15,117 nt of DNA. It comes from Bacteroidales bacterium. Its GTDB lineage: Bacteria > Bacteroidota > Bacteroidia > Bacteroidales > VadinHA17. Positions 1,726 through 11,763 of this stretch are shown here, in pieces; within the stretch, counting starts at the first letter, position 1, and each line of letters opens with the position of its first letter. The translations under genes and the position numbers were made by a program. The stretch lies in NCBI GenBank assembly GCA_003155705.1, contig PMEC01000049.1, positions 7,549 to 22,665 on the forward strand, read 5' to 3'. The notes under the pieces were generated by a model. The model worked only from the letters and a program-made list of their open reading frames with translations. It ran no database searches and was not told the origin of the DNA.

Positions 1726-4350
1726 ATGAAATTGAGCCTTAAAATACTTAAATGGTTTGCAATCGGAGTTACTCTTATCCTGATTCTGTTGTTTTGTATT
1801 TCCATTTTTCTTCAGAATGACGTGGTAAATATTTTCATTAAATCAATAAATAAAAACATCTCAACAAAAATAAAGGTCGGGGCCGGCAGTTTTTCTCTTA
1901 TAAGTAAATTCCCCAAAGCTACAATAAGACTGGAAGATGTGCTTGTTCATTCTTCTGCCAGGTTTGACCGTACCCAGTTTAAAGGGATGAATCTTGATAC
2001 TCTTCTTTATGCAAAATCCATGTCACTTGAATTTAAAATGACCGATCTAATTAAGGGTATATATAATATTGAAAGTGTAAGTATCACTAGCGGAATTTTG
2101 AATCTTTATTCAGATAGCACTGGAATGATTAATTATGAGATTTCATATGACAGTATTCCATCTTCGGAAAAAGAGCTTGTAATTAATCTGGAAAGAATTA
2201 ATGTTTCGAATCTCAATACAACTTATATTAATATCGCTACCAGTTTGAATATTAAGGGCTTATTTAAAACCGGCAGATTTAAAAGCAGAATTGCCGGAAA
2301 TAATATTGACTTCATTGCAAACTCCTCCCTGCAGCTATCTCACGTGGAAGTTTTCCCCTTATCTCTGAAAACCAGTACTGCTGCTACTATTGATCTTAAC
2401 CTTCATAAATCTGATAGTGGCATTTTCATCAGAAAAGGTACGCTTAAAATTGAAAGCTTTAATTTCGGAATCTCAGGATTTATATCTGGAACGGATAACA
2501 TTGATTTAAAAATAACCGGAAGTAATATTGATATTTCAAAAATAAAAAAATTTCTGCCGTCAAAATATCTTCATAATTGGGTGGAATACGATCCGGCAGG
2601 AATCCTGAGACTTAATTGCGGATTAAAAGGTGTTTTTAATCGAAAAAATAATCCTGATATTTTAATTGACTTTTCAATAGACAAGGGACATATTTTTAAT
2701 AAAAAATCTAATATTAAACTGGACAGGCTTTCATTGACAGGAAGCTTTAATAATGGTAAGCTTAAAGGTCCGGAAACCAGTGTTTTATTAATTAAAAAGG
2801 CAAATGTCTCTCTTGGATCAGCAGATTATTCCTGTTCATTGACAATAGAAAATTTTAAATACCCTGAAATTGATTTCATTTTTTCAGGTGAACTTTTCCC
2901 TTCTGAGCTGACAGAATTTTTTAATATCAAAAGAGTTTCATGGTCAAAGGGATCGGTAAAGCTTAATTTAAAACTTTCCGGGAATCTGCCCTTAAAAGAA
3001 AAATATTTCCTTAACGATTTTATGAGGCTGAATCCTGAAGCAGATTTGCAGTTCAACTCAATGGGAATCGGATTTAATAATAATAAACTTGTGGTTAATG
3101 ATATCAATGGAAATATATTTATTACCAAACACTTACGGGCGAATAATCTATCCTTTTCCTATAAGGGTCAAAAGGTAAAAATAGATGGGGAATTCACCAA
3201 TCTTCCAGCCTGGATTGCAGGTCAGCCCGTTTATATAAAGGCTGTTGCCGATCTTTCAATCGATAATTTAATGCCTTCCTCCTTCCTGCCGGATTCTTCA
3301 ACTGTTTCTGCGAAACAAACATCCTTTAAACTTCCTGATGGTGTTGAACTTGACATTAAACTAAGTATTGATAATCTGAACTATAAGAAGTTTTCTGCTA
3401 CTAACATAAAAGGAAATCTTATTTACAAACCGGGCTTATTCAGTTTTAAATCGTTTACGCTTAACTCACTGGATGGCTATATTTCAGGAGATTATTTACT
3501 CGCCGGGGGAACCGGAAAGTCCTTTATATCCCAGGGAAATTTTACACTTGCCGGAATCGACATAAATAAAGCATTCATCACATTTAATAATTTCGATCAG
3601 GATTTTGTATTGGCTGAAAACCTTGCAGGATCTCTGTCCGGATCCCTGTCTCTTATTATACCTCAGGATTCGTTGCTTAATCCCCGGTTTAGTACAATCA
3701 CCGCAGAAGGTAAATATACTATTACGAACGGGGCCTTAATAAACTTTGAACCTATAAAAAGTCTTTCCCGTTTCATCGAACTTTCTGAACTTGAAAACAT
3801 TACATTTTCGAAACTTGAAAATGATTTTTATATAAGAAATAATTATATTGCTATTCCCCAGATGGATATAAGATCTTCCGCAGCTGATTTTACAGTAAGC
3901 GGGAAACATGATTTTGACAATAATTATGAATATCACGTAAAAACATACTTGTCTGAACTCCTCAGTAAAAAAGTCAAAAAAAACAAGAAGAATTCTACTG
4001 AATTTGGTGCGGTTGAGGATGATGGGCTTGGCCGGACATCTATTTTTTTAAAAATTACCGGGAAAGGTGATGATGTTAAAGTTGGATATGATATGAAAGC
4101 TGCAAGAGGGAATATCAAACAAAGTCTTAAAACAGAAAAGGAGAACCTGAAAAGTATTTTTAATAAGGAATATGGATGGTTCAGTAAAGATTCGACAATA
4201 AAACAAGAGGCAGCTCCCAGACCAAAATTCAGAATTGAATGGGACGAAACGGACACTATCAAAACCCGGGCAGATACTTCGACCGTAAAAAAAGAACATG
4301 GAATAAACCGTATCTTTAAAAAGAAAAAAGGACCGGAACTTCAATTTTAA
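1726..4350 (+). CDS. AsmA-like envelope protein
   Basis: The 874-residue protein starts with a membrane anchor (about residues 10-31: FAIGVTLILILLFCISIF). A QNDVVNIFIKSINKNI segment follows, then a conserved-looking region with amphipathic beta strands (KIKVGAGSFSLISKFPKATIRLEDV). This is the usual opening of Bacteroidota AsmA-family proteins. The long middle is repetitive beta-rich sequence, as in the bridge-like AsmA/TamB group. The C-terminal AsmA signature begins near residue 668 (NGALINFEPIKSLSRF) and continues through LENITFSKLENDFYIRNN. The end is lysine-rich and polar (from about residue 748). AsmA-like proteins sit in the inner membrane with the bulk in the periplasm and are linked to lipid transport and outer-membrane homeostasis; that role is inferred here. 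The start is the ATG just ahead of the anchor; no Shine-Dalgarno is seen. The gene ends 7 bp before a histidine kinase, suggesting co-transcription. Confidence 0.8.
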   Translation: MKLSLKILKWFAIGVTLILILLFCISIFLQNDVVNIFIKSINKNISTKIKVGAGSFSLISKFPKATIRLEDVLVHSSARFDRTQFKGMNLDTLLYAKSMSLEFKMTDLIKGIYNIESVSITSGILNLYSDSTGMINYEISYDSIPSSEKELVINLERINVSNLNTTYINIATSLNIKGLFKTGRFKSRIAGNNIDFIANSSLQLSHVEVFPLSLKTSTAATIDLNLHKSDSGIFIRKGTLKIESFNFGISGFISGTDNIDLKITGSNIDISKIKKFLPSKYLHNWVEYDPAGILRLNCGLKGVFNRKNNPDILIDFSIDKGHIFNKKSNIKLDRLSLTGSFNNGKLKGPETSVLLIKKANVSLGSADYSCSLTIENFKYPEIDFIFSGELFPSELTEFFNIKRVSWSKGSVKLNLKLSGNLPLKEKYFLNDFMRLNPEADLQFNSMGIGFNNNKLVVNDINGNIFITKHLRANNLSFSYKGQKVKIDGEFTNLPAWIAGQPVYIKAVADLSIDNLMPSSFLPDSSTVSAKQTSFKLPDGVELDIKLSIDNLNYKKFSATNIKGNLIYKPGLFSFKSFTLNSLDGYISGDYLLAGGTGKSFISQGNFTLAGIDINKAFITFNNFDQDFVLAENLAGSLSGSLSLIIPQDSLLNPRFSTITAEGKYTITNGALINFEPIKSLSRFIELSELENITFSKLENDFYIRNNYIAIPQMDIRSSAADFTVSGKHDFDNNYEYHVKTYLSELLSKKVKKNKKNSTEFGAVEDDGLGRTSIFLKITGKGDDVKVGYDMKAARGNIKQSLKTEKENLKSIFNKEYGWFSKDSTIKQEAAPRPKFRIEWDETDTIKTRADTSTVKKEHGINRIFKKKKGPELQF

Positions 4351-4357
4351 AGACGAA

Positions 4358-5518
4358 GTGAACATTTATTACCGAAATACAATATGGAAACTTGCACTAC
4401 TTGTTTTTGCAGTGATTATCGGCCTTTCTTCATTGTTGTATACAGAAAATCTTGTTAAAAGGCTTAAGACTGAGGAGAGAAAAAAAGTAGAATTATGGGC
4501 AGAAGCAACAAGACTATTGATAAACAGTTCCGATTCAAGTGAATACCTTCCTTTTCTCTCTTCAATAAATGAAAATAATAGTACAATTCCAGTCATTCTG
4601 ACGGACGGGGCAGACAATATTATTTCTGCAAGAAATTTTGATCCTGAAAAAATAAAAGATATTAGTTTTCTGCAAACGGAGCTTGCCAGGATTAAAGGAA
4701 AGATCTCTCCGATAATTATAGATATTGGTGCCGGCCAAATCAATCGGATTTATTACAGGGAAAGCATAATACTCAGAAAATTAACTTATTATCCTTATGT
4801 TCAGCTAAGCGTAATTGTCTTGTTTATCCTTGTTTCATATATGGCTTTCAGTTCTTCAAGAAAAGCTGAACAGAATCAGGTGTGGGTTGGAATGTCAAAA
4901 GAAACTGCACATCAGCTTGGAACTCCGACATCATCTCTTGCCGGCTGGATTGAGATACTACAACTTAAATATCCTGAAATTACAATAACAGAAGAACTTT
5001 CCAGGGACCTTTCCCGTTTGGAAAAAGTGGCTGAGAGATTCTCAAAAATTGGTTCACGCCCTGATCTGGCACTAGAAAATATTATAACAGTCATAAACCA
5101 GACTATAGATTATCTCAGGTCCAGAACATCCTCAAAAGTTGTAATAAAGATAGATTCGGGCAATTTGAACGAAGTGTTAATCCCCATTAATTCAGCACTT
5201 TTCAGCTGGGTAATAGAAAATGTCTGTAAAAATGCGATCGATGCAATCACAGGGGAAGGTGAGATCAATATTCGTATTTCAGAAAATGACCAGGCATCAT
5301 TAATTGATATCAGTGACAATGGAAAAGGCATTCCTAAATCTGCTTATAAAAGGATATTCAAACCCGGATATACTACAAAAAAAACCGGCTGGGGATTGGG
5401 ATTATCGCTTGCGAAAAGAATTATCGAAGAATACCACGATGGTAAGATTTTTGTCAGAAATTCTGAAATCGGCAAGGGCTCAAGCATCAGAATTGTAATG
5501 AATAAGCGGATCAGCTAA
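4358..5518 (+). CDS. Membrane sensor histidine kinase (no HAMP, no receiver)
   Basis: This is a 386-residue sensor kinase that should autophosphorylate and pass phosphate to an unknown response regulator. Transmembrane segments lie at about 9-27 and 147-165 and flank a roughly 120-residue extracytoplasmic sensor with no recognised fold. The catalytic part has H185 in the H box (KETAHQLGTPTSSLAGW), the N box ENVCKNAIDAI (287-297), the G1 box DISDNGKGIP (317-326), the F box KRIFKPGYTTK (331-341) and the G2 box GWGLGLSLAK (344-353). All key residues are present. The HQLGTP form of the H box is common in Bacteroidota kinases. There is no HAMP or PAS domain. The start is a GTG 7 bp after the AsmA-like stop, chosen because it places the first membrane helix near the N-terminus; no ATG lies nearby in frame. 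No cognate response regulator is encoded in the window. Confidence 0.85.
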   Translation: MNIYYRNTIWKLALLVFAVIIGLSSLLYTENLVKRLKTEERKKVELWAEATRLLINSSDSSEYLPFLSSINENNSTIPVILTDGADNIISARNFDPEKIKDISFLQTELARIKGKISPIIIDIGAGQINRIYYRESIILRKLTYYPYVQLSVIVLFILVSYMAFSSSRKAEQNQVWVGMSKETAHQLGTPTSSLAGWIEILQLKYPEITITEELSRDLSRLEKVAERFSKIGSRPDLALENIITVINQTIDYLRSRTSSKVVIKIDSGNLNEVLIPINSALFSWVIENVCKNAIDAITGEGEINIRISENDQASLIDISDNGKGIPKSAYKRIFKPGYTTKKTGWGLGLSLAKRIIEEYHDGKIFVRNSEIGKGSSIRIVMNKRIS

Positions 5519-5549: not shown

Positions 5550-6815
5550 ATGAACCGAAAAGAGATTGAAATAATGGCTCCTGCAGGGTCGTATGAATGC
5601 CTGATGGCTGCAATTCAGGGGGGCGCCGATTCTGTCTATTTCGGAGTCGGGCAGTTGAACATGAGAGCTGCCTCATCAAATAATTTCACTTTAAAAGATC
5701 TTAAAAATATCGCTTTAATCTGCAGGGAAAATAAAATAAAAAGCTATCTCACAGTAAATGTGATAGTTTACGATAATGAGGTTCAACAGATGAAGGAGAT
5801 AGTTGAAGCTGCAGCAGAAAGCGGAATATCTGCCGTTATTGCTTCCGATCAGTCTGTTATAAATCATGCATTCTCTTCAGGGCTTGAGGTTCATCTTTCT
5901 ACCCAACTGAATATTACTAATGTTGAAGCAATCAGGTTTTATTCACAATGGGCTGACGTTGCAGTACTTGCCAGAGAATTAAATCTTGATCAGGTCAGAT
6001 ACATTTATGATGCTATCCGGCTAAACAATATCAGAGGGCCTAATGGAGAATTGATGAAAATTGAGATGTTTGCTCATGGAGCGTTGTGCATGGCGATATC
6101 CGGAAAATGTTATTTGAGCCTTCACGAAAATAACAGATCAGCGAACCGGGGAGCCTGTTACCAGACCTGCCGGAAATCATATGTAGTAACAGAAAAAGAG
6201 ACCGGGTATGAGCTTGAGATAGATAATGATTACATTATGTCACCCAAGGACTTATGTACGATTGGATTTCTTGATAAGATTATTGATGCAGGAGCTCGGG
6301 TTTTGAAAATTGAAGGGAGGGCCAGGTCTGCAGAATATGTCAAAGTTGTATCCTCTTGTTATGATGAAGCCATTAAATCTATTGTTGCAGACAGCTATAC
6401 TCCTGAAAAAATCGGACTTTGGACAGCAAGATTATCCACTGTATTTAACCGGGGCTTCTGGGATGGATATTATCTGGGACAAAAAATGGGTGAATGGACA
6501 AACAGCTACGGCTCCAGCGCCGCAAAAAGAAAAGTCTACGTTGGCAAGATTACAAACTACTTCACAAAAATAAATGTGGCTGAGATTAAACTTGAATCCG
6601 GAAACTTAAATAAAGGCGACACCTTGCTGATAATCGGGCCAACAACCGGCGTCATAGAATACACAGTGGAAGAAATTCGGGTAGATCTCAGGGTAACTGA
6701 AAAAGCAAAAAAAGGCGAATTCTGCTCAATCAAAATTACAGATTTCCTCAGGCGATCTGATAAGGTTTACAGATGGGCAGATGCAGAGAGGACAAAAGAA
6801 AAATCGCAATCTTAA
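5550..6815 (+). CDS. trhP: U32-family protein, TrhP (YegQ)-type tRNA hydroxylase
   Basis: The 421-residue protein has the U32 signature at 171-190: IEMFAHGALC followed by MAISGKCYLS. The N-terminus IMAPAGSYECLMAAIQGGADSVYFG is a typical U32 TIM-barrel opening. Conserved cysteines are C180, C187, C203 and C207 (GACYQTC), with C236 in SPKDLC. The KIEGRARSAEYV motif is at 253-264. A C-terminal small beta domain spans about 328-400 (VGKITNYFTKINVAEIKLE ... NKGDTLLIIGP). Family members annotated as collagenase-like peptidases include TrhP, which hydroxylates tRNA wobble uridine (ho5U34) in E. coli and B. subtilis with prephenate-derived chemistry. The length and the SPKDLC segment favour TrhP over the longer RlhA type. 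The assignment to TrhP is by architecture, so the exact substrate is inferred. The gene converges with mnmH and shares stop bases with it. Confidence 0.82.
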   Translation: MNRKEIEIMAPAGSYECLMAAIQGGADSVYFGVGQLNMRAASSNNFTLKDLKNIALICRENKIKSYLTVNVIVYDNEVQQMKEIVEAAAESGISAVIASDQSVINHAFSSGLEVHLSTQLNITNVEAIRFYSQWADVAVLARELNLDQVRYIYDAIRLNNIRGPNGELMKIEMFAHGALCMAISGKCYLSLHENNRSANRGACYQTCRKSYVVTEKETGYELEIDNDYIMSPKDLCTIGFLDKIIDAGARVLKIEGRARSAEYVKVVSSCYDEAIKSIVADSYTPEKIGLWTARLSTVFNRGFWDGYYLGQKMGEWTNSYGSSAAKRKVYVGKITNYFTKINVAEIKLESGNLNKGDTLLIIGPTTGVIEYTVEEIRVDLRVTEKAKKGEFCSIKITDFLRRSDKVYRWADAERTKEKSQS

Positions 6816-7849
6816 GAGAATACCTTCTCTGCAACTTTAAGAATTTTTAAAACATTGACTTCAGTTTCATCGGTCTCTGTTTGAATATATTGTATCTGAT
6901 CTTCCTTTCTCCCTTTCAAATTGTACATATATGTTTTATCATAATAATTCAGTGTTATTTCTATTGCTCTTGAGAAGTTATCTGCTTCCAATTCAGTTAT
7001 TGCTTCTTTAGTATTATCCCCGCCAAGTCGCTTTGAAATCTTTTTGATTGATGAAATCAGTTCTTCTTTGGGGAAAGCTGAATATTCTTTTATCAATCGC
7101 GGCATTCTTGTCTGAACAGACATTATAATCGCAATTACCGGAGATTCATGAAGTCTTATGTAGAACTGGTCCGGCATAAAAACAGTTCCGATATTTTTAC
7201 TTTCATCTTCAAACCAGATAAATTTATTTTTATCGGTTTTTTCTATTTCGTGAAATAGCAGATTGGCAAAATGTTCTGAGGTTGGCTGATCCGGTTGTCC
7301 AAGAGATCCGAATGCAGAACCCTTGTGGCATGCAATAGCCTCCAGATCAATTACCTGATGACCCATATTCTTTATTTTTTTCAGAATCTCTGTTTTCCCA
7401 CTCCCGGTTAATCCACTGAGAACAATATATTTGTGTTTTTCTGAGAGTTTTTCGAGTACATGTTGCCTGTAAGATTTATAGCCTCCATCAAGAATCCGGG
7501 TGTCAATATCTCCCAGAGAGAACAGCCAGGCCATAGCTTCGGATCTCATCCCGCCCCTCCAGCAATGGACAAGGAGTTTATTTTCTTTTGCCAGTTTCAG
7601 GGCTTCATCAAGTTTCAGGTACATTGAAGGGCCTGTCAGTTGAAGTCCTTTCAGGATGGCTTCTCTCCGCCCCTCTTTTTTATATTTAATTCCGACAGCT
7701 TCCCTTTCCTGGTCATTAAAAAGCGGAATGTTATTTGCGCCTGGAATATGTCCTTTTCTGAACTCTGAAGGAGATCTTACATCAACAACCGGGATAGATG
7801 CAGCCATGGTCAGAAAGTCTGATATAATCAGCTTATTATAAGGATCCAT
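6812..7849 (-). CDS. mnmH: tRNA 2-selenouridine synthase MnmH (SelU)
   Basis: The 345-residue protein has the two-domain layout of MnmH. An N-terminal rhodanese domain carries the active-site cysteine C96 in HCWRGGMRS, preceded by VVDVRSPSEFRKGHIPGA and by the family block LFNDQEREAVGIKYKKEG. A C-terminal P-loop domain has GLTGSGKT at 146-153, the HKGSAFGSLG block (175-184) and WFEDES (212-217). Length is close to the roughly 360 residues of E. coli. The enzyme first geranylates the 2-thiouridine at wobble position 34 of certain tRNAs and then exchanges it to 2-selenouridine using selenophosphate. No selD is in this window. The ATG at 7849 sits at the normal distance ahead of the rhodanese fold; no strong ribosome site is seen. 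It is 96 bp downstream of the hybrid kinase with no obvious promoter box between, so read-through is possible. Its last codons overlap the U32 stop. Confidence 0.92.
   Translation of the reverse strand: MDPYNKLIISDFLTMAASIPVVDVRSPSEFRKGHIPGANNIPLFNDQEREAVGIKYKKEGRREAILKGLQLTGPSMYLKLDEALKLAKENKLLVHCWRGGMRSEAMAWLFSLGDIDTRILDGGYKSYRQHVLEKLSEKHKYIVLSGLTGSGKTEILKKIKNMGHQVIDLEAIACHKGSAFGSLGQPDQPTSEHFANLLFHEIEKTDKNKFIWFEDESKNIGTVFMPDQFYIRLHESPVIAIIMSVQTRMPRLIKEYSAFPKEELISSIKKISKRLGGDNTKEAITELEADNFSRAIEITLNYYDKTYMYNLKGRKEDQIQYIQTETDETEVNVLKILKVAEKVFS
6815..6830. terminator. Possible bidirectional terminator hairpin at the convergent gene ends
   Basis: AGAGAA at 6815-6820 and TTCTCT at 6825-6830 form a perfect 6-bp hairpin around TACC. 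It lies immediately after the U32 stop and inside the last codons of mnmH. T tracts are weak on both sides (ACTTT on plus, GATTTTT eight bases away on minus). It may help termination from either direction, but the call is tentative. Confidence 0.33.
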
Positions 7850-7945: not shown

Positions 7946-10780
7946 TTATTTGTTAAAATATTCGGCAAAAAGCTTTTTAAGATCTTCCAGCCGAACGGGT
8001 TTGGAGATAAATTCCTTTATACCGGACAATTCTGCTTTCCTTCTTGAATCAGGCATATTATCTGCAGTAATAGCAACTATATGATAGGATTTATCAAATT
8101 CGAGAATCCGCCTTGCTGATTCATAACCATCCATTTCTGGCATAATTATATCCATGAAAATTATATCATACTTTTTGTTAATAGCTTTATTATAACCTTC
8201 ATGTCCGTTTTCAGCAATTTCAGGGGAATACCCAAGAACCTCCAGCATTTTTGTCATTGTTTTCAGGTTCATCTTATTATCATCAACAACAAGAATGTGA
8301 ATTTCTTTTTTCAGGACTTCTGAACCTGTGGTGTCCGCACAATTTTCAACACCGGGAAAGCTGTTCTGGATAACTTTACATAATTCGCCAGCATCAAATG
8401 GTTTAACCAGGTAATGATCTATGCCCAGATTGATACACCGCAGATAATTACCTTTTTTGTCATTAGAACTGACCATTATCATTACAAAATTTAATGAAAG
8501 TTTATTCTCCCATAATGATCTTGCAACTTCAAAACCATCAAAATCCTCATCATCAGTAATAATTATCATCCTGTACCTTTCTGTCGGAAGGGAAAGGTTG
8601 GCTTTTAACTGACTAGTTGTCGATTTCTGGAATGTTGTAACAGAAGACGATAGGCCAAGTTTGTGAACGGAAGTCATGAGTTCTTCATCCCTGTTCTGAC
8701 TTCCGGATATAATAAGGGTTTTTATCTGATCAAACCGACTTAAGTCTGACATATTCAGTCCCTTTTGTGATCTTTCATTGGAATATGCTTTAATTGTGAA
8801 AGTCACCTTATTCACTGCGTTGCCAGAACTTTCCGTCTGACTTTCAGCAATAAGTTCTCCGCCCATCAATTCTATAAGTTGTTTTGCTATAATTGTTCCA
8901 AAACCAGATTCATCGTTTGATCTGACAGATATTGAGTCTGCACCTAAAAAGTTTCCAAATATTTTTTTCAGGTCAGCCTTGGAAATTGGTTGTCCTGTAT
9001 CCTGAATTTCAAACAATAGTATTACAACTCCATCTATTTTTCCCCGAGTCCGGCAATTGAGAAGAATCTCACCTTTTTCTGTATTTTTTATGGAATAATT
9101 AATAAGATTTGTCAGTATTTGTCTTAGCCTGAAAGGGTCACCGATAATGCTCTCCGGTACTTTTTTATCAATTATATGTCTGATTATCAGATCTTTTTCA
9201 AGTATGTTCGTTCTTGCAAGATCGACAGAGTAATTAATTTCCTCTCTAAGGTTGAAAGGAGCTTCATCCAGAATCATTTTACCTGATTCAATTTTAGAAA
9301 AATCAAGTATGTCATTAATAATTCCAAGCAGAACTTCCGTTGATCTGCGTAACAGACTTACAACATCTCTGACCTCGTTGTTCAGATCATATCTGTTCAG
9401 GACATCTGCCATTCCTATTATTCCATTAAGAGGGGTCCTTATTTCATAACTCATTCTTGCAAGAAACTCAGATTTGGCAACATTTGCTTTGGCTTCCTGC
9501 TTACGAGCTGACTCGAGCATAGTTATATCTATAAGGATTTCCATTGTAGCTTCCTCTCCTGAAAATTTTACCGGAATGCTGCTTCTGTAAAGTACTATTT
9601 CTCCTATTTCCTTCTTTATTATAACAAATTGATCCGGCAGGAATGTGCCCCCCAGATATTTGGAAAAATAATCACTATTGTCCGGTAGTGAGGTTTCCGG
9701 AAATATTTTTCCGAGCATTTCAGACTCCTTCTCATACGAGTAGAAACCCGCAGCGACTTTGTTCGACTTAAGAATCTCCCTGCTATAATTATGAATTATT
9801 ACTCCGACCGGCATCTCCTCAATTAGCTTCATCAGAGTACTTTCGGAGTCAGAAAGTCTTTCCACTTCTGATTCCATTGATTTTATATACCTCCAGAATA
9901 TTAAGATTATCAGTTGAATTATAAGCAGAGTTCCGATTACGATGAATATCGAATTTCTGATGATATATTTCTGGAAATAATCTGTTCTGGCTGAGAATAT
10001 CAGACCAAGGTCTCTCTGCAGAATCTGTGATGAGTAATAAGAGGAAAGAACTTCCCGATTTTTACCATCAATAATTGCCTCATGAATAATATTAGAGTTA
10101 GCTCCAGAGGATATTGCTCTGACAATCTTATCAATCTGAGAGTATTTTGTTATCCCGTTGTTGTCAAAAATTATTTCACCTTTATCACTTACTACCCACT
10201 GCCATTGATAATCCTTCAGGTTAAATTTTGAAAAAAGTTTCTGAAAGAATCTCTTATAATCAACTGTCACCATGATATTTCCAAATGGATCCCCACCACT
10301 TTTCATCAGGATCGGGGCATAGTAATTGAATTTCCCGTTACTTTCAATTAGTATGTCCATTTTCTGAATTTCTCTTTGATCCAGAGCGGTGAATTCACCT
10401 TCAATCCATTCATATGTCTGTTCATCCCTTGATAAAGTATATTCATTAAGATAGTTATCGTATAACCTGATATTAGTAACAAAGTCTTTGTACTTCGAGA
10501 AGAAGAGTTTCATTTGGTCTGTCACCCTGTATTTAACATCAGGTTTTGATTTATCAAAAAACCTTGTCAGGTCCTGAGAAAAGGGAATCTTGGCCAGATC
10601 GCTTCCAAAATCATTATTAGTACTGTCAACTTCCAGGCCGACAATCTGAACCTGTCTGTCAAGTAATTTAACAATATAATTTATCTGCTTATTATACAGG
10701 CTCTGATAATAAAAGTAGTTTGCCAGCATTATTACCAGAAATGCAGAATAGACAAGAATAAGGACTCTTCTCCTTTTCAT
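7946..10780 (-). CDS. Hybrid sensor kinase with degenerate catalytic core (pseudokinase) and intact C-terminal receiver
   Basis: This is a 944-residue, uninterrupted membrane protein with the layout of a hybrid histidine kinase. Membrane helix 1 is at about 7-25, the periplasmic sensor (Cache-like by position) at about 28-273 and helix 2 at about 275-297. A PAS-like domain spans about 312-425, the HisKA region about 434-500, the ATPase-like domain about 545-665 and two receivers about 685-808 and 826-944. The H box reads ARMSYEIRTPLNG, with Y445 where the phosphoacceptor histidine belongs (codon TAT on minus, plus 9446-9448). The N box reads NLINYSIKNT, with Y562 at the ATP-Mg asparagine. G1 is DTGQPI, with P598 instead of Gly. 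G2 is ESGFGT, with E624 instead of Gly. The first receiver has ISGSQ where the acidic pair is expected. The second has D833, D834, D877, T905 and K927, so it looks functional. Autophosphorylation is unlikely; the protein may sense a ligand, partner with another kinase or be phosphorylated in trans. MnmH lies downstream. Confidence 0.88.
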   Translation of the reverse strand: MKRRRVLILVYSAFLVIMLANYFYYQSLYNKQINYIVKLLDRQVQIVGLEVDSTNNDFGSDLAKIPFSQDLTRFFDKSKPDVKYRVTDQMKLFFSKYKDFVTNIRLYDNYLNEYTLSRDEQTYEWIEGEFTALDQREIQKMDILIESNGKFNYYAPILMKSGGDPFGNIMVTVDYKRFFQKLFSKFNLKDYQWQWVVSDKGEIIFDNNGITKYSQIDKIVRAISSGANSNIIHEAIIDGKNREVLSSYYSSQILQRDLGLIFSARTDYFQKYIIRNSIFIVIGTLLIIQLIILIFWRYIKSMESEVERLSDSESTLMKLIEEMPVGVIIHNYSREILKSNKVAAGFYSYEKESEMLGKIFPETSLPDNSDYFSKYLGGTFLPDQFVIIKKEIGEIVLYRSSIPVKFSGEEATMEILIDITMLESARKQEAKANVAKSEFLARMSYEIRTPLNGIIGMADVLNRYDLNNEVRDVVSLLRRSTEVLLGIINDILDFSKIESGKMILDEAPFNLREEINYSVDLARTNILEKDLIIRHIIDKKVPESIIGDPFRLRQILTNLINYSIKNTEKGEILLNCRTRGKIDGVVILLFEIQDTGQPISKADLKKIFGNFLGADSISVRSNDESGFGTIIAKQLIELMGGELIAESQTESSGNAVNKVTFTIKAYSNERSQKGLNMSDLSRFDQIKTLIISGSQNRDEELMTSVHKLGLSSSVTTFQKSTTSQLKANLSLPTERYRMIIITDDEDFDGFEVARSLWENKLSLNFVMIMVSSNDKKGNYLRCINLGIDHYLVKPFDAGELCKVIQNSFPGVENCADTTGSEVLKKEIHILVVDDNKMNLKTMTKMLEVLGYSPEIAENGHEGYNKAINKKYDIIFMDIIMPEMDGYESARRILEFDKSYHIVAITADNMPDSRRKAELSGIKEFISKPVRLEDLKKLFAEYFNK

Positions 10781-10836: not shown

Positions 10837-11763
10837 TCATCTGTATTTGCGATTATCATCCTCCAGAATGTTCAGATAGCTTCTGTACCGGAGAGGATCT
10901 ATATCCCCGTTTTCAACCGAAGACCTTACAGCGCATCCGGGTTCTTCGAGATGCAGACAATTATAGAACCTGCATTCATTTGATTTCCTGAAAATTTCAG
11001 GGAAAAAATGGTAAATCTCAATACGGTCCATATCGATGACTCCAAACCCCCTGATGCCGGGAGTATCAATAATATATCCGCCAAAAGGCATCGGGTGCAT
11101 TTCAGGAAATGTCGTTATGTGTTTGCCCTGTTTATGGTAATCAGAAATTTCTTCAGTTTTAAGATTAAGGGTGGGATTGAATAAATTCAGAAGAGTTGTT
11201 TTTCCTACACCTGAATTTCCTGAAAGAAGATTAATTTTATTCTTCATCGTGTTTTCAAGAAGAGCTGTGTTTTCCCCTGTAACCAGGGACAGCCTGAAGC
11301 ATTCGTACCCGATTTTGCTGTATAATGCAATAAGAAACTCCATCCTTTTAAGTTCGCGTTCGCCATAAAGATCTGTCTTATTAAAAATGATTTTTGCGGG
11401 CACCCTGTATGCTTCAGCGGTTGCAAGAAATCTGTCTATAAATTCCACCGGAGTTTCTGGCAATATTATTGTTACCATCAGAAACACCTGGTCGAGGTTT
11501 GCAGCAAGTATTTGTGAATGTTTTGAGAGGTTGGATGATTTTCTGACAATATAATTTTTCCTGTCAAGAACCTCCGTAATTATACCGGTAAAATCCACGG
11601 TGTTATAATCAAACAGAACATGGTCACCAACAGCAATAGGATTAGTGGTTCTGATTTCTTTTACACGCAACTTACCTTTTATGGTACAATCAACAATTTT
11701 GCCCTGGTCAAACAACACCTTATAGCGGCTGCCGGTAGATTTAATAACAAGCCCCTTTTCCAA
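10837..11763 (-). CDS. rsgA: Ribosome small-subunit assembly GTPase RsgA
   Basis: The 308-residue protein shows the circularly permuted GTPase order of RsgA (YjeQ), which acts in late 30S maturation. An OB-fold N-terminus (about 1-75) comes first. G4 NKTD is at 128-131 and the G5-like SLVTG at 159-163. The P-loop GNSGVGKT (G1) is at 182-189, the G2 threonines in GKHITT at about 217-218 and G3 DTPG at 233-236. A zinc-binding C-terminal motif follows: C264, C269, H271 and C277. All landmarks are present and the length is normal. The ATG at 11763 places the OB fold at the usual position. The gene lies between the phosphofructokinase and the hybrid kinase, all on the minus strand. A -7 box just upstream suggests its own promoter with a very short leader. 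Confidence 0.95.
   Translation of the reverse strand: MEKGLVIKSTGSRYKVLFDQGKIVDCTIKGKLRVKEIRTTNPIAVGDHVLFDYNTVDFTGIITEVLDRKNYIVRKSSNLSKHSQILAANLDQVFLMVTIILPETPVEFIDRFLATAEAYRVPAKIIFNKTDLYGERELKRMEFLIALYSKIGYECFRLSLVTGENTALLENTMKNKINLLSGNSGVGKTTLLNLFNPTLNLKTEEISDYHKQGKHITTFPEMHPMPFGGYIIDTPGIRGFGVIDMDRIEIYHFFPEIFRKSNECRFYNCLHLEEPGCAVRSSVENGDIDPLRYRSYLNILEDDNRKYR

Follow-up and report, generated by a model that had tools for sequence, protein, structure and literature searches.

Histidine kinases without their phosphoacceptor histidine are rare, and DivL of Caulobacter crescentus (PDB 4q20) is the best studied of them. A tyrosine is reported at the acceptor position in nearly all DivL orthologues, and the protein is described as having no kinase or phosphatase activity, while its dimerisation and histidine phosphotransfer (DHp) domain binds DivK~P; R553A disrupts DivK binding and Y550H does not (PMC4211667). 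In this paper we analysed a stretch of 15,117 nucleotides, called the window below, from a Bacteroidales bacterium of the GTDB lineage VadinHA17 (assembly GCA_003155705.1, contig PMEC01000049.1, positions 7,549 to 22,665). Its gene at 7946-10780, on the minus strand, encodes a hybrid histidine kinase with a tyrosine, Y445, at the acceptor position. Judged from its orthologues, this loss of the histidine is a family-wide trait, not a strain oddity, and it occurred repeatedly within the family.

The family gene resembles DivL, as far as DivL is described, in the tyrosine acceptor within a recognisable DHp domain, the arginine three residues further on and the weak or lost use of ATP. The window protein gives a profile match of 4.9e-21 to DivL, which stands at rank 44 in the Foldseek list with a template modelling score of 0.73 (on the target) and 27% identity. 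DivL differs in being alphaproteobacterial and in its described architecture of several PAS domains and no receiver, whereas the family gene has a sensor probably of Cache type together with a pseudo-receiver and an intact receiver (residues 827-940). It also shows several replacements (Y, F, Q, R) where the tyrosine of DivL is said to be nearly constant.

Other known systems share further features. ShkA of Caulobacter (PDB 6qrj) is the best Foldseek match of the window protein (profile match 2.1e-52) and has the same order of DHp, catalytic and ATP-binding (CA) domain, pseudo-receiver and receiver with an intact last receiver, but it is an active kinase; its pseudo-receiver is reported to control access to the DHp domain (PMC12632262). 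RetS of Pseudomonas aeruginosa (PDB 6dk7, 7n0e) shares the kinase-core fold and is among the top sequence and structure matches, and it is described as acting on the DHp domain of another kinase (7n0e), although its sensor and lineage are different. RcsD is a hybrid-type protein reported to lack the conserved histidine (PMC3762810), but its output is a histidine phosphotransfer (Hpt) domain whereas the window protein ends in a receiver, and the NCBIfam RcsD model reaches only 89 of 634 bits on the window protein, far under its cut-off. The Caulobacter protein CCNA_03265 is described with a kinase domain lacking the histidine or other essential residues, a retained receiver Asp and a nearby histidine which may serve instead (PMC11481889), and the plant subfamily-2 ethylene receptors ETR2, ERS2 and EIN4 with a kinase domain lacking the histidine or other essential residues (PMC2799528). 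These last proteins are not orthologous to the family gene and are likened to it by description only.

Pseudo-histidine kinases, hybrid ones included, are thus already known from the published accounts of DivL, CCNA_03265, RcsD and the ethylene receptors. For the repeated loss of the acceptor histidine with differing replacements in one orthologous core gene we recognised no precedent among the open-licence papers that our searches listed. Here a single orthologous gene in a conserved place includes canonical kinases, proteins that lost the histidine and kept the ATP site, proteins that kept the histidine with a damaged ATP site, and proteins that lost both, and the receiver Asp is constant across all these states. 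This natural experiment makes two questions testable, namely which role of a hybrid kinase needs no kinase activity and in which order the steps from kinase to pseudokinase were taken.

The window gene and its damaged motifs

The gene has the following features.

7946..10780, minus strand: hybrid pseudo-histidine kinase gene, 944 amino acids (open reading frame; Pfam HisKA, HATPase_c and Response_reg)
Residues about 7-27 and 275-297: membrane helices flanking the sensor (judged by eye)
9959..10699, minus strand: extracytoplasmic sensor, residues 28-274, probably of Cache type (predicted structure with a predicted local distance difference test score, pLDDT, mostly of 76-90; dCache_1 in orthologues)
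9509..9880, minus strand: PAS-like region, residues 301-424 (PAS_8 in 21 of 29 orthologues; structure model)
9272..9484, minus strand: DHp domain, residues 433-503 (Pfam HisKA at 435-500; model helices 420-462 and 468-498)
9446..9448, minus strand: Tyr445 codon, phosphoacceptor position (sequence; family alignment of 104 genomes)
8789..9271, minus strand: CA domain, residues 504-664, with damaged ATP site (HATPase_c at 547-664; pLDDT below 50 at 611-624)
9095..9097, minus strand: Tyr562 codon, N-box Asn position (sequence, orthologue alignment)
8987..8989, minus strand: Pro598 codon, second Gly of G1 (sequence, orthologue alignment)
8909..8911, minus strand: Glu624 codon, start of G2 (sequence, orthologue alignment)
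8354..8737, minus strand: pseudo-receiver REC1, residues 682-809 (two Response_reg stretches; acid pocket absent)
7961..8302, minus strand: intact receiver REC2, residues 827-940 (Pfam Response_reg at 829-937)
8150..8152, minus strand: Asp877 codon, REC2 phosphoacceptor (Asp in 103 of 103 readable family orthologues)

The frame starts with ATG and runs over 944 codons with zero internal stops, and its order from the N-terminus is membrane helix, sensor, membrane helix, PAS-like region, DHp, CA, pseudo-receiver and receiver. The first-pass annotation, made from this stretch alone, had described an open frame with a ruined kinase core and a working receiver, and direct reading confirms each of the residues it named. 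The H box is MSYEIRTP (Y445), the N box LINYSIKNT (Y562), G1 DTGQPI (P598) and G2 ESGFGT (E624/S625), while the receiver has VVDDN (D833/D834), D877, T905 and K927. The Pfam models HisKA (1.7e-18), HATPase_c (7.4e-15) and Response_reg (1.4e-32) continue to match, so the motif changes are substitutions inside recognisable domains. The protein combines sensor, DHp, CA and a receiver with intact Asp in a single chain, as a hybrid histidine kinase does, with the HisKA/HATPase fold and the missing phosphoacceptor histidine of a pseudo-histidine kinase.

REC1 (about 682-809) is degenerate in all 16 orthologues read, canonical ones included, and with its acid pocket absent in each of them a second working receiver is ruled out. 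Pfam dCache_1 matches the sensor in five of 29 orthologues, the window protein not being among these. The structure model (mean pLDDT 78.1, predicted template modelling score 0.40) served only for domain limits and the Foldseek list. No NCBIfam equivalog could be assigned to the window protein, as none of the best 25 of 120 models reached its cut-off.

Phosphoacceptor loss across the family

An orthologue is found in 110 of the 117 family genomes and in all 15 genera (match E <= 1e-120), as a single copy per genome except in three genomes with the gene in two pieces; within the window's own genus it is found in 57 of 62 genomes (E <= 1e-150). The next-best matches to the window protein align for the most part over the kinase core, with about 30-40% identity. 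With one copy per genome at strict cut-offs, bar the two-piece genes, a duplicate that has taken over the kinase role was rejected. The named relatives are metagenome-assembled genomes of Bacteroidia or Bacteroidales.

We read 104 of the 110 orthologues, omitting six partial ones (G050, G077, G111, G115, G121, G129). Position 445 is Tyr in 56, Phe in 20, His in 18, Gln in 6, Arg in 3 and a gap in one, which means that the acceptor histidine is absent from 85 of 103 readable orthologues. The replacement differs between the genera, here numbered g1 to g31. Genus g1 has Tyr 52 times, Phe twice and one gap, g30 has Phe in 18 of 18 and g26, g27 and g29 have Tyr; together, g1, g29 and g30 are aromatic in 73 of 73 readable rows, one further row being the gap. 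Gln is found in g22 and, four times next to two Arg, in g19. Mixed genera are g28 (Arg, Tyr, His) and g25 (His, Gln), and His is found in g18, g20, g21, g23, g24 and g31. The receiver residues are kept throughout, with D834 in 104 of 104, D877 in 103 of 103 readable and K927 in 102 of 102 readable orthologues.

The first-pass annotation had named a normal histidine in close relatives as one sign against its reading. In the protein collection the best 120 of 7983 matches, the window protein included, carry 117 Tyr, 2 Phe and 1 His. The loss is also unusual. In the window's own genome, 21 of the 22 HisKA places, all except the window gene, keep the histidine (20 aligned, one by eye), and of 55 places in three further family genomes 30 were fetched, of which two are the orthologue, 24 are distinct others with His and four were left unaligned and outside the count. 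This gives 45 of 45 other HisKA domains read with His in four family genomes. As background, the reported share without it among sampled bacterial HisKA domains is 0.9% (722 of 76,471; PMC12632262), against which the 85 of 103 family orthologues are more than chance would give.

A search of 393 genomes of the order gave matches at E <= 1e-110 in 83, of which five belong to the family. The histidine is kept in 25 of 25 loci read from ten other families, with rsgA adjoining 23 of these; the remaining matches lie outside this reading, and many span only kinase core and receivers. Of the 25 loci, two (L277 and L283, family f39) have lost the G2 box, and at L284 of family f7 the H box is odd and Asn replaces the receiver Asp.

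How often the histidine was lost was estimated on quick trees of the sensor, PAS and receiver columns with the kinase core excluded, one of 90 rows and one of 71 rows with an other-family outgroup. In these trees the g26 row covers 48% of the columns and some branches are long. On the 71-row tree the His and non-His states require at least five changes. If the histidine is never regained there are six losses, namely in g1+g29+g30, in g26, in g27, in one of two g25, in two of three g28 and in g19+g22. However, P0007, a homologue within the Tyr group with His at 445 and damaged N box and G2, suggests that the histidine can return, which makes five changes the safer number; by its sequence, P0007 may represent a return from Tyr to His in an ATP-dead background. 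A single origin of the loss was rejected, as placing the 38 non-His rows in one clade cost 948 log-likelihood units with a p-value of 3.4e-93 in the approximately unbiased test, run on a quick tree and with the tested group named after the tree was seen.

The ratio of nonsynonymous to synonymous substitution rates (dN/dS), calculated by NG86 for the 45 closest of 90 pairs with more than 80% identity, does not approach the value near 1 that the first-pass annotation had named as a second sign against it. In 23 pairs with both members known to be non-His it ranges from 0.049 to 0.240 over the whole gene and from 0.000 to 0.136 within the DHp domain. Seven pairs with a half gene (locus L025) give 0.042-0.089, and fifteen His pairs give 0.128-0.455; since these are mostly at low dS we claim no contrast between His and non-His genes. 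The gene, REC2 and, in the Tyr/Phe lineage, the DHp docking helix are, on these ratios and the conservation given below, under purifying selection.

One might argue that the gene is slowly being lost and that its substitutions are neutral. The replacement does differ by lineage (Y, F, Q, R), the gene is unmatched in seven of 117 genomes and in G006 it is split into two frames. But slow decay is already contradicted by the low dN/dS in 23 of 23 non-His pairs, the other full-length copies are open, the receiver residues are invariant and position 445 stays aromatic throughout g1, g29 and g30, and we consider it very improbable. Recent decay or a sequencing error in the window strain is incompatible with the orthologues and their dN/dS. 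The split in G006 (contig C213, L025), a frameshift or an assembly error near residue 450, falls within the H box or immediately ahead of it.

Kinase loss in a maintained gene, as the first-pass annotation proposed, is thus well supported by the orthologues without His and their dN/dS far below 1. Its further claim that the loss was selected goes beyond the sequence data. Repeated loss was followed by strong constraint, but selection for the loss itself does not follow, and each loss may have been neutral in a protein that could already do without autokinase activity. The mechanisms it suggested, a heterodimer, phosphorylation by another kinase, a phosphatase or a receiver platform, are putative. 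The family-wide and recurrent nature of the loss, invisible from the window alone, is the more interesting part.

ATP site, docking helix and possible mechanisms

We scored five hand-picked letters of the ATP site (N562, D594, G598, G626 and G628). At least one is absent in 75 of 76 Tyr/Phe rows, while all five are present in 6 of 6 Gln rows and four in the three Arg rows. Among the His rows 13 of 18 have all five, the others being three of g31, one of g24 and one of g18. At the N-box position 562, the Tyr/Phe lineage has His more often than any other residue (in 42 of the 74 rows from g1, g29 and g30).

The DHp domain shows the reverse pattern. Tyr/Phe rows keep E446 in 76 of 76, R448 in 74 of 76 and T449 in 74 of 76, whereas Gln/Arg rows keep E446 in 9 of 9, R448 in 8 of 9 and T449 in 1 of 9. 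Pairwise identity in DHp helix 1 averages 0.89 in g1 (53 rows), 0.95 in g30 (18), 0.85 in g18+g20+g23 (10) and 0.70 in g19+g22 (7), compared with 0.65, 0.78, 0.68 and 0.78 for REC2 in the same groups, and no part of the protein is better conserved in the Tyr/Phe genera than this docking helix. The Tyr/Phe lineage thus dropped ATP use and retained the docking helix, whereas in g19 and g22 the Gln/Arg rows kept the ATP site and dropped docking.

The window protein probably signals without being a kinase. For the Tyr/Phe lineage, including the window protein, we lean towards a DivL-like pseudokinase whose own-chain receiver would be phosphorylated in trans. The ancestor would be a normal hybrid histidine kinase, and a hybrid sensor shared by the whole family would have become a pseudokinase unable to autophosphorylate. 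The phosphoryl group of REC2 would then arrive from elsewhere, perhaps from a free-standing Hpt that a different hybrid kinase has charged. The dimer of DHp domains, which the sensor and PAS region would set, might read a receiver by docking, either its own REC2 or another, as DivL does with DivK~P, and the output would be a change of conformation or of partner binding with no phosphotransfer from the DHp domain. R448, which lies at the offset of R553 in DivL, favours this reading, and Phe in 20 rows suggests that the hydroxyl of the tyrosine is not needed.

Several observations weigh against the DivL-like reading or limit it. It cannot cover the whole family, as the Gln/Arg rows lack the docking letters, T449 above all, have a helix-1 identity of only 0.70 and mostly keep the ATP letters. 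DivL itself, as described, has no receiver of its own, unlike the window protein. In g31 and g24 the histidine is kept with a damaged ATP site, as it is in P0007. D594 and G596 never vary among the 104 family orthologues read, leaving room for residual nucleotide binding or a structural role of the CA domain. The free-standing Hpt proteins described below are present also where the kinase is canonical, and nothing ties REC2 to them specifically. Finally, seven of 117 genomes are without a match (E <= 1e-120), and two of these seven, G070 (97% complete) and G086 (93%), are over 90% complete, which means that the gene may be lost in places.

The recurrent loss and the two lineage fates could also be explained by a kinase that has been turned round, with the phosphoryl group entering at the receiver (from an Hpt), the receiver docking on its own DHp domain, and the former core and sensor becoming gate or output. 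If kinase activity was already dispensable in the ancestor, the acceptor histidine would be lost repeatedly. We regard this as a tentative proposal, less probable than the DivL-like one.

ExxT/N is the phosphatase motif, and the E446xxT449 of the DHp domain, controlled by the sensor, might dephosphorylate REC2 or a different receiver, which would make the protein a phosphatase-only enzyme. The near invariance of E446 and T449 in the Tyr/Phe rows fits this role, and the histidine is reported to contribute to HisKA phosphatase activity without being essential (PMC12632262). But T449 is nearly gone from the Gln/Arg rows, DivL is described without phosphatase activity, it has been argued that this is not the general role of pseudo-histidine kinases (PMC4211667), and the damaged CA domain may fail to support a nucleotide-assisted phosphatase. 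A phosphatase-only role therefore seems doubtful.

Gene neighbourhood and candidate partners

The neighbouring features of the window referred to in this section are the following.

10837..11763, minus strand: rsgA, upstream neighbour and synteny marker (Pfam)
6812..7849, minus strand: mnmH (tRNA 2-selenouridine synthase), downstream neighbour and synteny marker (NCBIfam equivalog above cut-off)
4358..5518, plus strand: separate sensor kinase with normal motifs (TAHQLGTP, N box, DxGxG, GLGL), a possible unproven partner (HATPase_c)

Among loci with flanks, mnmH adjoins the orthologue in all 15 genera and rsgA in 13; mnmH was not found at several single loci, and for rsgA the exceptions are g20, where it was not found in the 4 kb read, and g26, where the contig begins inside the gene. 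rsgA flanks the gene in outgroups too, among them Carboxylicivirga mesophila (L036), a cultivable relative whose orthologue is canonical. Farther out are a U32 peptidase and the separate kinase.

The kinase at 4358-5518 bears on the possibility of a heterodimer, in which the Tyr subunit would pair through its conserved DHp domain with an active sensor kinase and inhibit it or be served by it, similar to RetS and GacS. The strong conservation of DHp helices 1 and 2 in the Tyr/Phe lineage speaks for this, as do RetS and the RetS-GacS DHp complex 7n0e, which stand among the best structural matches of the kinase core, and the many other hybrid kinases encoded in family genomes. However, the conserved helix-1 residues are equally those of receiver docking, and the intact REC2 would be unexplained unless the partner phosphorylates it. 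No dedicated kinase partner was found either. The kinase at 4358-5518 is intact, with its motifs kept in 16 of 16 rows read (of 59 aligned), and its synteny with the pseudokinase gene extends through the genera to the outgroups, but this kinase lies beside canonical orthologues as well and was rejected as a dedicated partner. We consider a heterodimer unlikely.

With respect to a phosphoryl donor for the DivL-like pseudokinase, free-standing Hpt frames of 117-151 residues are found in 8 of 8 family genomes tested, in those with His and with non-His orthologues alike, and some of the eight have an additional Hpt. The one Hpt tested against Pfam matches PF01627. Such an Hpt is a candidate phosphoryl donor for REC2 and no more. 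In six regions (L251, L252, L253, L256, L257 and L258) an open reading frame of 111-128 residues directly follows the Hpt, and the two tested both match Pfam STAS. This pairing in sequence hints at a phosphorelay linked to partner switching in the family.

A protein of 874 residues is encoded at 1726-4350 on the plus strand of the window, with a weak AsmA match (E 0.004, below cut-off), and occupies the same place in other genera.

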